Source of the DNA: a virus
Direction: 5' to 3' (one strand)
Virus record (IMG/VR): IMGVR_UViG_3300022198_001588
Location: 1-26,017 of that record
Length of the DNA stretch: 26,017 nt
The notes under the pieces are model-generated. The model ran no database searches. It had not been told where the DNA came from and saw nothing but the letters and a program-made list of their open reading frames with translations. Within the stretch, counting starts at the first letter, position 1; each line of letters starts with the position of its first letter. Positions 8,263 to 10,930 of this stretch are shown here, piece by piece. Both the position numbers and the translations under genes were made by a program.

Positions 8263-8496
8263 ATGGAAGAAGAACGTAAGGCCCGGCTCAAAGAGATCCG
8301 CGATGCTGTGCGGGATAGTACCCGCAATATACACAACCTCCCGCAACGTATTGTTTGGAACCGCGTAATGAATCGCGGTTGGAAGTTAGACGACGCGTTG
8401 AACACACCCCAGATGAACAGAAGCCAAGCCGGACACAAGGCGGCGAAGAATCCGAACTGGCGCAACTTCACAATAAAAACGCCAGTAACCGAATAA
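8263..8496 (+). CDS. small DNA-binding-like protein
   Basis: A 77-residue basic protein. The segment WNRVMNRGWKLDDALNTP matches the RGWsl..AL.TP motif found in DNA-binding helices of phage homing endonucleases and intron-associated proteins (NUMOD-like). The N-terminus is a charged helix (EEERKARLKEIRDAVRD) and the C-terminus ends NFTIKTPVTE. There is no nuclease domain. It lies between palindrome copy 6 and the RAMP-like gene and has a weak AGAGA ribosome site. It could be a stand-alone DNA-binding module left from a homing endonuclease. Confidence 0.65.
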   Translation: MEEERKARLKEIRDAVRDSTRNIHNLPQRIVWNRVMNRGWKLDDALNTPQMNRSQAGHKAAKNPNWRNFTIKTPVTE

Positions 8497-8561: not shown

Positions 8562-9170
8562 ATGGCAAACTTAAAAGAGATGAACCTCAAGCGTATGACT
8601 TTCACCGTGGAGAGCACCTCCCCGCTGATCCAACACAAGTGGTCAGAGAAAGCCAAGAAGCAACTACGCGATAAAGGTCAGAAGACTGCAACGACGAAGA
8701 ATCGCGAAGCGCGTAACCCTGAAAAGGAAGCGCACGACGCGACTCACTTCACTGCGGATGGCAAGTACGGCATCCCGCTGATGGCGTTCAAGGCGTCAAT
8801 GATTGGCGCTGCGCACAAGGACATCGGCTTGGAAAAGACGCTGCTGCGTAAGTCTGTGTTCTTTGAGTGCAACGACCCTGAGATGATCGTCGAGATCGAA
8901 ACCCCTGAACCGGTGATTCGCGAAGACATGGTGCGTGTCGGCGCAGGCTCAGCGGATATTCGCTACCGTCCTGAGTTCCGTAAATGGAAAGCGAAGATTT
9001 CGTGCGTGTTCGACAACGACCTGATCGCTGCGGAAGACATCTTGAATCTGGCAAACCGTGCTGGCTTCGGTGTTGGTCTGCTGGAATGGCGCCCAGAGAA
9101 GGGTGGTGACTATGGCCGTTATCAAGTAAGCGCCGATTCTGGCGTTGTTTTGGAGGATGCACATGGCTAG
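8562..9170 (+). CDS. RAMP/Cas7-like phage protein of unknown function
   Basis: A 202-residue protein; the start at 8562 follows the shared AAGGAGACCAGCA leader. The N-terminus has a strand ending in ESTSPLIQHKW, like the 'gtsPLlhg' pattern of RAMP/Cas7 folds. The C-terminus carries a Gly-rich loop (AGFGVGLLEWRPEKGGDYGR, then YQV) like the RAMP G-loop. The middle contains helices and a GIPLMAFKASMIGAA segment. Similar phage proteins exist without annotation. There are no CRISPR repeats or effector genes here, so a CRISPR role is not implied. The similarity is by pattern only; an RNA- or DNA-binding role is the best guess. Confidence 0.7.
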   Translation: MANLKEMNLKRMTFTVESTSPLIQHKWSEKAKKQLRDKGQKTATTKNREARNPEKEAHDATHFTADGKYGIPLMAFKASMIGAAHKDIGLEKTLLRKSVFFECNDPEMIVEIETPEPVIREDMVRVGAGSADIRYRPEFRKWKAKISCVFDNDLIAAEDILNLANRAGFGVGLLEWRPEKGGDYGRYQVSADSGVVLEDAHG

Positions 9171-9684
9171 GCAATACACGTACCGTGAAAACTTCAGAGG
9201 CTCTGTGCCTGCACAGGCTCTCGGTGAAGTGCTAGACGAGTTGGAAGACAAGCTGGGTAAAGTCGACGCGCAAGATGTAGTTGACGCGGCTCGCCCAGAT
9301 GACTCGCCGATTCACAACCTGTGTTCGTGGGATGATGCAGCGGAAGCGGAGAAGTACCGCCAGCACGTAGCCCGTAAACATATTCGTGCAACTGTTGAGA
9401 TCACAGTCGTCAAGTCTGAACGGGCGAAGGCTCAAGAGATCGCGATAAGTGAACGTGTTCACTCAAGAGATGGTGGCTACAAACGAATCGAAGTTGTAGC
9501 TGCTGACCCGATGGACTTCAGCATTTGCATGCACGAGTTCCAGACCCGAGTCGCTTCCCTGCGTGCGTCGATGCGTAGGCTTGAAGAAGCGGCAGAGGCT
9601 CGATTGCCAGAAAACGAGAAGGGCTTGCTTGTTCTCGCTAAGGCGTTCGAGATGATGGACAACGCACTTGATATGCTCCACTAA
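9163..9684 (+). CDS. hypothetical phage protein with helical C-terminus
   Basis: A 173-residue protein, not recognised. The start at 9163 is chosen because GGAGG lies 8 bases upstream; it overlaps the end of the preceding gene by 8 bases. The N-terminal half is acidic with short helices (LGEVLDELEDKLGKV). The middle predicts beta strands (HIRATVEITVVKSER, YKRIEVVAADP). The C-terminal half is a long helix (residues about 125-170, RVASLRASMRRLEEAAEARL). It ends just before the pentamer lattice. Its role may be linked to the RAMP-like gene by coupling. Confidence 0.7.
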   Translation: MARQYTYRENFRGSVPAQALGEVLDELEDKLGKVDAQDVVDAARPDDSPIHNLCSWDDAAEAEKYRQHVARKHIRATVEITVVKSERAKAQEIAISERVHSRDGGYKRIEVVAADPMDFSICMHEFQTRVASLRASMRRLEEAAEARLPENEKGLLVLAKAFEMMDNALDMLH

Positions 9685-9690
9685 GAGCAT

Positions 9691-10124
9691 TGGTATGGTA
9701 TGGGGTGTGGCAACGTGCGGTAAGGCTTGGTGGGGTCCGGTAGGGTGGGTATTGGTTTGGCAGGTATGGCTCGGAAGGGCATGGTATGGCTCGGAAAGGT
9801 AAGGCAGGTCCGGCAAGGCGGGGTAAGGTTTGTTTCGGCAAGGTCAGGTATGGCGCGGATTGGTAAGGCAGGTGAGGTTGGGTATGGCACGTTATGGTGT
9901 GGCTGGGAAGGGTATGGAGCGGTGCGGATTGGTAAGGCAGGTTAGGTTGGGTGAGAGAGGTATGGAACCGTCTGGTGAGGTGAGGTTGGACATGGTTTGG
10001 CAGGTAAGGTTAGGCAAGGTCTGGCTGGGTGAGAACTGGTTGGGAAAGATAAGGATTGGTATGGCAGGTTTGGTGGGGTGCGAGAGGTATGTTCTGGTGA
10101 GGAACGCAGGTTATGGTTTGGCAA
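9691..10124 (+). repeat. G/T-rich lattice of degenerate NNGGY pentamers
   Basis: About 430 bases in which a GG doublet recurs every 5 bases, written as NNGGT or NNGGC, with very few C on this strand. The register holds for long runs (for example GG starts at 9724, 9729, 9734, 9739, 9744) and slips by one base at GGCAGGT or GAGAGGT sites. It is open in several frames only because NNGGY rarely forms stops, and no codon structure is visible. It separates the small-protein block from the replication genes. An RNA decoy, protein-binding lattice, R-loop or origin role are all inference. Confidence 0.85.
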
Positions 10125-10125
10125 C

Positions 10126-10137
10126 TTTAATTAGGAG
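10126..10137. repeat. half copy of the start-associated palindrome
   Basis: TTTAATTAGGAG keeps only the right arm of the palindrome, TAATTAGGA. The AGGAG it contains is the ribosome site of the gene at 10145, 7 bases downstream, as in copies 2 and 4. Confidence 0.5.
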
Positions 10138-10144
10138 CGCAAGG

Positions 10145-10315
10145 ATGAGCGATAAATGGCATGGCGGTAAGGGCAGCAAGCGCCGCCCCGAAGACCGCAA
10201 AGCGTACGAGGATAACTACGACAAAATTTTTGGAAAAAAAGATGGACAGAGTGATAAACCGCCCGAGTCTGAGCGGGTTTCGCAGACACCTACTGGCAAC
10301 GAGAGCGAGTGCTGA
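10145..10315 (+). CDS. small phage protein with HGGKGSxxRPE motif
   Basis: A 56-residue basic-to-polar protein starting MSDKWHGGKGSKRRPEDRKA, then Y. The HGGKGS..R motif and following D.RIF-like end recur in many uncharacterised phage proteins. An in-frame extension into the pentamer lattice exists but is rejected because AGGAG precedes this ATG and the upstream sequence is repeat. It overlaps the next gene by 74 bases in another frame. Role unknown. Confidence 0.75.
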   Translation: MSDKWHGGKGSKRRPEDRKAYEDNYDKIFGKKDGQSDKPPESERVSQTPTGNESEC

Positions 10316-10454
10316 GGCCAGAGACAAAAACAAGAAGCGCAGAGTCAACTACGAAGCTGAATCGACAAAGCTGAAGACGCTGATCGCACTTGAGATGTTA
10401 GACAACTATATCAACAAAACCAAAGGAACCGACGATGAGAGCAAGACCGCCTGA
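10242..10454 (+). CDS. small basic hypothetical protein
   Basis: A 70-residue protein, Arg/Lys-rich at the N-terminus (MDRVINRPSLSGFRRHLLAT) and with a helical C-terminus (LKTLIALEMLDNYINKT). I place the start at the ATG at 10242, inside the preceding gene, because the region further upstream shadows that gene; the ribosome site (GGA 9 bases upstream) is weak. The long overlap makes the start uncertain, but the part after 10315 is not otherwise used and codes well. Confidence 0.55.
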   Translation: MDRVINRPSLSGFRRHLLATRASAEARDKNKKRRVNYEAESTKLKTLIALEMLDNYINKTKGTDDESKTA

Positions 10455-10656
10455 GTTTTTACACTCCCTTTCCCTCCGCAAGCTGCGCAAAGACTTGCAG
10501 GAGGTGTGCCAACAAGCCATGCGCTTGTCCCGCACCAAAGGCCAGAACGAAATCAAGCTGAACTTCACCGGCAAGGATTACCTTGAACTACAGAAGCGGC
10601 GCGACTCGATCATCAACAAGATCAGAACCGTGTGGAACATGGAGGAAATCAAATGA
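10435..10656 (+). CDS. small basic hypothetical protein
   Basis: A 73-residue basic, helical protein (RKLRKDLQEVCQQAMRL, DYLELQKRRDSIINKI). AAGGAA lies 7 bases before the ATG, and it overlaps the previous gene by 20 bases. The helices suggest a small DNA- or RNA-binding dimer. No family match. Confidence 0.7.
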   Translation: MRARPPEFLHSLSLRKLRKDLQEVCQQAMRLSRTKGQNEIKLNFTGKDYLELQKRRDSIINKIRTVWNMEEIK

Positions 10657-10754
10657 TTAATTGGCTTGAAGCTGCGATGTATTTTGGTTTTGGTATGTTT
10701 ATTGGCTTTGCCCTCAGCATACTGGTTGATTGGTTGGAGGAAAAGAACACATGA
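10653..10754 (+). CDS. 33-residue membrane protein
   Basis: ATGA overlap with the preceding gene, GGAGGAAATCAAATG ribosome site and a second ATGA overlap with the next gene. The peptide has one hydrophobic helix (MYFGFGMFIGFALSILV) with a short acidic-basic tail (DWLEEKNT). It lies in the middle of small soluble proteins and the VRR-NUC gene. Translation is well supported; function unknown. Confidence 0.65.
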   Translation: MINWLEAAMYFGFGMFIGFALSILVDWLEEKNT

Positions 10755-10930
10755 ACCACGACAACCTCACCGTGCTGAAGAAGGCACGCTGCCTTGCGAA
10801 GAAGGCGTTGGAGTTATCCGAACGCAAAAACTTCGATGGGGTTGAATGCCACTACGCGCTAGATGACATGGCGCAGGAAGCCCGCTACATCCTGTGGGAA
10901 ACACAAGAACTGGAGGCGAAGGATGGCTGA
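10751..10930 (+). CDS. small helical hypothetical protein
   Basis: A 59-residue protein beginning MNHDNLTVLKKARCLAKKAL, with two helices separated by ERKNFDGVECHYAL. It starts in an ATGA overlap after TTGGAGG and overlaps the VRR-NUC gene by 8 bases. Layout suggests a partner or regulator of that nuclease, but no motif supports this. Confidence 0.7.
   Translation: MNHDNLTVLKKARCLAKKALELSERKNFDGVECHYALDDMAQEARYILWETQELEAKDG

Follow-up and report, generated by a model that had tools for sequence, protein, structure and literature searches.

Here we report a phage-encoded VIPR (Viral Interference Programmable Repeat) locus in a 26,017-base IMG/VR record that carries the genes of an uncultured tailed phage; this whole stretch of DNA is referred to below as the window. 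The identity of the system as VIPR is close to certain. A tract at positions 9691 to 10123 of the plus strand, together with the genes vipr (8562 to 9170) and a vap-like accessory gene (9163 to 9684), almost surely forms a VIPR system in which the tract is a vrRNA (guide) array that is read as in the mechanism proposed below. VIPR was described in a preprint of April 2026 as a phage-encoded, CRISPR-like form of RNA-guided silencing (PMC13142463); the kind has been known since then, and the window locus is a further member. According to the preprint, a VIPR pairs a RAMP-like Vipr protein and an accessory gene, vap, with long vrRNAs from intergenic DNA that are made of 9-16 YNNGG repeats; the NN bases recognize the DNA targets, one base being skipped between them (PMC13142463). 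Programmable DNA silencing is demonstrated there for a Vipr homologue and is strengthened by SUSP1 vap1, the small RNAs are expressed and co-purify with Vipr, and the minimal locus has two genes (PMC13142463). The same source gives an RRM core, a glycine-rich loop, and a thumb domain interrupting guide-target pairing as traits of Vipr, distinguishes seven types with vap1-6, names staggered or overlapping arrays in its main text, and proposes VIPR as a CRISPR forerunner (PMC13142463).

A first-pass annotation made without database searches had spotted the tract as a non-coding lattice of NNGGY pentamers with a strong G-over-C skew, and a VIPR locus is thus recognizable from bare sequence. We confirmed each element of that description. 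Autocorrelation of GG positions in 9691 to 10124 gave 58 pairs at lag 5, where dinucleotide-preserving shuffles predict 20.6 (z = 9.8; the highest count among 1000 shuffles was 33), with further peaks at lags 10, 15, 20, and 25. The end-to-end step from one G run to the next is exactly 5 in 55 of 77 cases. A pyrimidine (T or C) follows GG in 67 of 78 cases, and the next two bases are near random; the ratio of G to C is 198:44. All three plus-strand frames are interrupted by stop codons (5, 2, and 9), and the tract is therefore not a gene. It had also been called the most unusual structure in the window, which agrees with up to 44 lag-5 GG pairs in a 300-base segment of the tract and at most 6 in any segment elsewhere on either strand. 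The lattice runs from just past the stop codon at 9684 to the last GGCA at 10120 to 10123. Within it, 10-base gaps are mostly two in-phase pentamers, the second of which has lost its GG by decay, and steps of 4 bases, which are frequent, nearly all correspond to the tetramer GGCA. A search of the tract for repeats returned loose lattice matches, about 60-87% alike, and recurring short tandem words. RNA folding of the tract did not exceed that of shuffles (z = +0.91). No Rfam family and no hammerhead ribozyme was found in the window and 13 lattice loci, no sigma-70 promoter or terminator on the plus strand, and no DNA match of 9001 to 10900 among 50,697 phage records.

GGCA, which shifts the phase of the lattice by -1, occurs at 9759, 9803, 9867, 9936, 9999, 10063, and 10120 and divides the array into seven (GGYNN)n-GGCA units. 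Unit 1 (9685 to 9762, 78 nt) includes the 5' edge, which is out of register. Unit 2 (9763 to 9806, 44 nt), unit 3 (9807 to 9870, 64 nt), unit 4 (9871 to 9939, 69 nt), and unit 6 (10003 to 10066, 64 nt) consist of 8, 12, 13, and 12 pentamers, respectively, each closed by GGCA. Units 1, 5, and 7 are less regular: unit 5 (9940 to 10002, 63 nt) has one extra -1 phase step, GAGA, and unit 7 (10067 to 10123, 57 nt) closes at the last GGCA, with no lattice beyond. A second -1 phase step, GAGAGGTAT, stands at the same place in units 5 and 7 and could be either another mark or a decayed pentamer. The unit ends have a TTGGTWW-GGCA-like sequence in common, with no RNA fold above shuffles. In arrays of the window's vap clade (74 loci), NGCA accounts for 529 of 806 -1 phase steps, compared with 73 of 222 in Vipr loci without the window's vap family. 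Intervals between NGCA steps in the window's clade equal 5n+4 in 366 of 418 cases, mostly with n = 7-13, a regularity that is partly built in by the choice of phase-shifting GCA marks only. This unit punctuation by GGCA in the window's clade is one of the things that the locus adds, and it may already stand in the supplement of the preprint (PMC13142463).

The vipr gene encodes 202 amino acids from the ATG at 8562 and is predicted, by profile and fold, to specify a RAMP-fold guide-RNA-binding protein. A profile of 36 Vipr family members had a sole match among solved structures, PDB 36pp, the 'SUSP1 Vipr protein' (E = 7.6e-39), and all 36 members match phrog_4652. In a direct BLASTP comparison with SUSP1 Vipr (E 3e-11), the alignable stretch of 86 residues is 30% identical. 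An AlphaFold model of the window's Vipr (mean pLDDT 92.9) had Csm3/Cas7 RAMPs as its best PDB matches in Foldseek (probability 1.00, E 2.9e-7, TM about 0.5), and a Gly-rich C-terminal motif, GxGDxRP...GRFxV, is conserved in the family. In a FastTree phylogeny with local support only, the window's Vipr lies among loci with its own vap family and far from SUSP1. The accessory gene (173 amino acids, phrog_15946) overlaps the vipr stop by 8 bases and is classed as vap-like; 80 of the 82 loci with this vap family also have vipr. Its confident AlphaFold model (pLDDT 91.1) is mostly helical with a small sheet. A structure search with the model found no solved fold with an E value below 0.001. The window's protein has no reliable match to any named family, the Pfam match to HEF_HK being isolated and confined to the window's member. 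In five other loci (L042, L050, L069, L103, and L107), a SUSP1-like Vipr is followed by a different accessory family, and GGCA is sparse (2 of 15 -1 steps).

Lattice and Vipr are found together across viruses, from whichever side the search begins. We searched viral contigs for eight GG at 5-base spacing alone, with no protein query, and obtained at least 120 stretches from unrelated viruses, many with several matches each. Among the matches listed, the lattices are degenerate, non-coding, GGC- or GGT-rich, and 200 to 1400 bases long, and they run in the coding direction of the genes beside them (both neighbors co-directional in 45 cases, both opposed in 4). Grouped by homology, the adjacent genes among these matches form a single large family, whose proteins have about 200 residues, and a few minor families. 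A profile of the former has at least 65 members in lattice loci, including the window's 8562 to 9170, and a second family includes 9163 to 9684. A vipr homologue was present in 61 of the 92 contigs with a real lattice among the matches listed, at a median gap of 29 bases; about one third of these contigs have no detectable vipr on the stretch examined. No lattice was found near the polymerase in 23 relatives.

In the reverse test, a search with nothing but the window's Vipr sequence brought up 67 loci, and a lattice was present on the strand of vipr in 63 of them and on the opposite strand in none. Control loci had no lattice (0/23 polymerase relatives and 0/54 other contigs, 0/77 together). 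Two of the four Vipr loci without a lattice, L147 and L170, are on contigs that break off right after vipr. With a stricter definition, an array was found in 56 of 66 Vipr loci. A lattice search alone had thus recovered the Vipr family from IMG/VR, which confirms the link between lattice and Vipr independently of the structural mining described in the preprint (PMC13142463).

The locus is a cassette with vipr and vap as its only genes. Elsewhere the window encodes an AAA ATPase, a VWA-like DUF2201 protein, a PD-(D/E)XK nuclease, an SNF2 helicase, a DUF927 protein, an LPD38 large polyvalent protein, and a family-A DNA polymerase. The vipr-vap-array block is exactly missing from four colinear contigs (L004, L005, L008, and L020; polymerase 78-83% identical), in which about 5-11 bases separate a homologue of 8263 to 8496 from a homologue of 10145 to 10315 behind it; alignment of the joined flanks displays the empty site. 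The left edge of the cassette, GGCGCAACTTCACAATAA (8459 to 8476, plus strand), is common to the empty site in all four, and the right edge, GGCAACTTTAATTAGGAG (10120 to 10137, plus strand), placed by flank alignment, overlaps the last GGCA. The two edges are alike, and both resemble the sequence that is present once in the empty sites. By analogy with the characterized system, the cassette would be a removable RNA-guide system that silences rival viral DNA, carried by an uncultured phage. Contig L147 has a vipr 90% identical and a vap start 86% identical to those of the window behind unrelated genes, and it ends ahead of any visible array. Because the two genes are near-identical in such a different context, the comparison points to a recent transfer of vipr-vap between different viruses. 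L147 is from the same metagenome as L025, an identical copy of the window locus. That one genomic site either has the cassette or exactly lacks it, and that a near-identical vipr-vap occurs in a different virus of the same metagenome project, are further additions of this locus. L025 / L146 (IMGVR 3300025647_000732) is a second assembly of the window locus, identical where compared, which stops within the array at about window position 10008. Arrays lie at or near the ends of several other contigs as well and may therefore break assemblies.

Similar loci are present in cultured phages, where the genes are annotated as hypothetical proteins: vipr, vap, and an array were found in Mycobacterium phage Saal (gp51-gp52) and in the Gordonia phages ODay and UmaThurman. 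Their Vipr proteins are 37-42% identical to that of the window and adjoin a GGCA-punctuated lattice, which is GGC-rich in these phages and GGT-rich in the window. Saal has its array upstream of vipr, and the two Gordonia phages have theirs between vipr and the genes that follow; that of ODay sits between tail genes. Among six F1 mycobacteriophages, vipr DNA is 98.9-100% identical and the sequence between array and vipr is nearly identical, and the arrays vary by whole GGCA-bounded units. For example, a 59-base unit in Saal is absent from ByChance, and the Donkeykong array has two units more than that of Brocalys. In units that these phages have in common, the NN bases vary and GGC is kept. This is the expected look of guides under turnover, and whole-unit turnover in cultured, easily handled Mycobacterium phages is another point that the locus brings to the system.

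Because of its phase shift, its position at the array end, and the turnover of whole units, GGCA is supported as the guide boundary, and processing would take place there. A broader proposal, which we make tentatively and rate as somewhat short of an even chance, is that GGCA is both guide boundary and recombination module. Tail-less (GGYNN)8-13-GGCA units would be cut or phased at this tetramer, guides would be gained and lost whole, giving an editable library without Cas1-Cas2, and the cassette of this Vipr/vap clade would move between unrelated phages.

We searched for targets of units 3, 6, 4, and 1 in IMG/VR viral contigs under the one-base skip rule. Exact 8-pentamer matches numbered 30, 24, 9, and 0, respectively, and their flanks were mostly chance-like, with no convincing target in viral contigs. 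The best match, of unit 3 to the minus strand of L219 (4836 to 4864), covers 20 of 20 guide bases over ten pentamers and lies in a gene of an unrelated phage. We do not claim it as a target, since the chance expectation is about 0.12 and the skipped base is at codon position 1 rather than at the wobble position. In 84,980 bacterial genomes, unit 3 had no match and a Saal guide had five, all unrelated and chance-like. A comparison of skips 0-3 over all loci collected gave no usable signal because contigs fetched by skip-1 patterns bias the count.

Other readings of the lattice can be weighed against these data. Vipr might bind the GGY lattice in its own transcript, in a TRAP-like autoregulation in which the array is a cis-acting site and no DNA is targeted. 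In most loci the array comes directly after vipr-vap and shares its strand (64 of 77 arrays are downstream of vipr), which would suit such a site, as would target searches that gave no target. We nevertheless regard autoregulation as improbable: 13 of the 77 arrays, all of which are on the strand of vipr, lie upstream of the gene, as in Saal; a regulatory site would not be expected to gain and lose entire units whose NN bases are random; and a homologue shows programmable DNA silencing (PMC13142463).

A structural DNA element, namely a replication origin, an R-loop or G-quadruplex tract, or a packaging site, fits the strong G skew and the location ahead of replication genes, and an origin of this kind had been put forward in the first-pass annotation. 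The colinear relatives keep the same polymerase, nuclease, and helicase genes and exactly lack the tract, which speaks against an origin, and the lattice accompanies Vipr into unrelated phages at other sites, for example between the tail genes of ODay. Since the tract also shows no excess RNA folding, we consider any such element highly improbable. Equally little credence is due to a neutral, decayed satellite repeat or a C-rich rho-utilization element on the minus strand: that strand is indeed C-rich and G-poor and short tandem words recur, yet GG is kept while NN varies, and lattice and Vipr are nearly always found together, on one strand in every case. A decoy RNA, also raised at first, found no support, the constant partner across viruses being the RAMP-fold Vipr.

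For the guide array, we thus propose the following mechanism, modeled on what the preprint describes for SUSP1-type VIPR (PMC13142463), from which transcription, formation of the ribonucleoprotein, the one-base-skip code, and repression are inferred for the window. The array would be transcribed with or behind vipr-vap and would yield seven guide RNAs. Copies of the Cas7-like Vipr would coat each guide, one subunit per pentamer, and grip the invariant GGY, leaving two free NN bases per pentamer to read target DNA by non-contiguous pairing (NN, skip one base, NN). The -1 phase shift of GGCA at each unit end would mark the guide boundaries, and the complexes, once bound, would keep competing phages or satellites from being transcribed.

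The type II VIPR of Escherichia phage SUSP1 resembles the window locus in a RAMP-like Vipr of about 200 amino acids, an adjacent accessory gene, carriage by a phage, and a non-coding GGY/NN pentamer array on the same strand (PMC13142463; PDB 36pp). Its Vipr is distant, the accessory family is probably different, and, as the preprint describes them, its vrRNAs are separate, about 100 nt long, and each with a folded tail, whereas the window has one contiguous seven-unit array punctuated by GGCA. The window's clade apparently differs from the one that was studied experimentally. Class 1 CRISPR-Cas systems have the RAMP fold and the predicted RNA-coating backbone (Csm3/Cas7) in common with the window locus, in which, however, near-identical CRISPR repeats are lacking, no cas gene was seen in the cassette, and guide and constant part are interleaved every five bases. 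Protein recognition of RNA with 5-base spacing is known from TRAP (MtrB), which binds GAG/UAG repeats. TRAP had been named at first as the nearest precedent, and by analogy the general idea holds in that 5-base RNA units would be read from the plus strand by a repeated protein. TRAP itself does not apply: the motif is GGY, the partner is a RAMP protein, and the array is modular and variable.

Two further observations concern the arrays of the cultured phages. Genes deposited as 'hypothetical protein' lie within the arrays of Mycobacterium phages Donkeykong (L286, 277-663), ByChance (L288, 430-588), Zizzle (L289, 390-578), and Pippy (L290, 390-578), and are probably annotation artefacts of the non-coding array. 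Behind the final array unit, Saal (L276, about 2813-2860) has a constant sequence, also found at the same place in five relatives, that contains GGCTGGGCAACCAGCC; this forms a perfect hairpin of 6 bp with a GCAA tetraloop and is a candidate for the 3' tail of the last guide.
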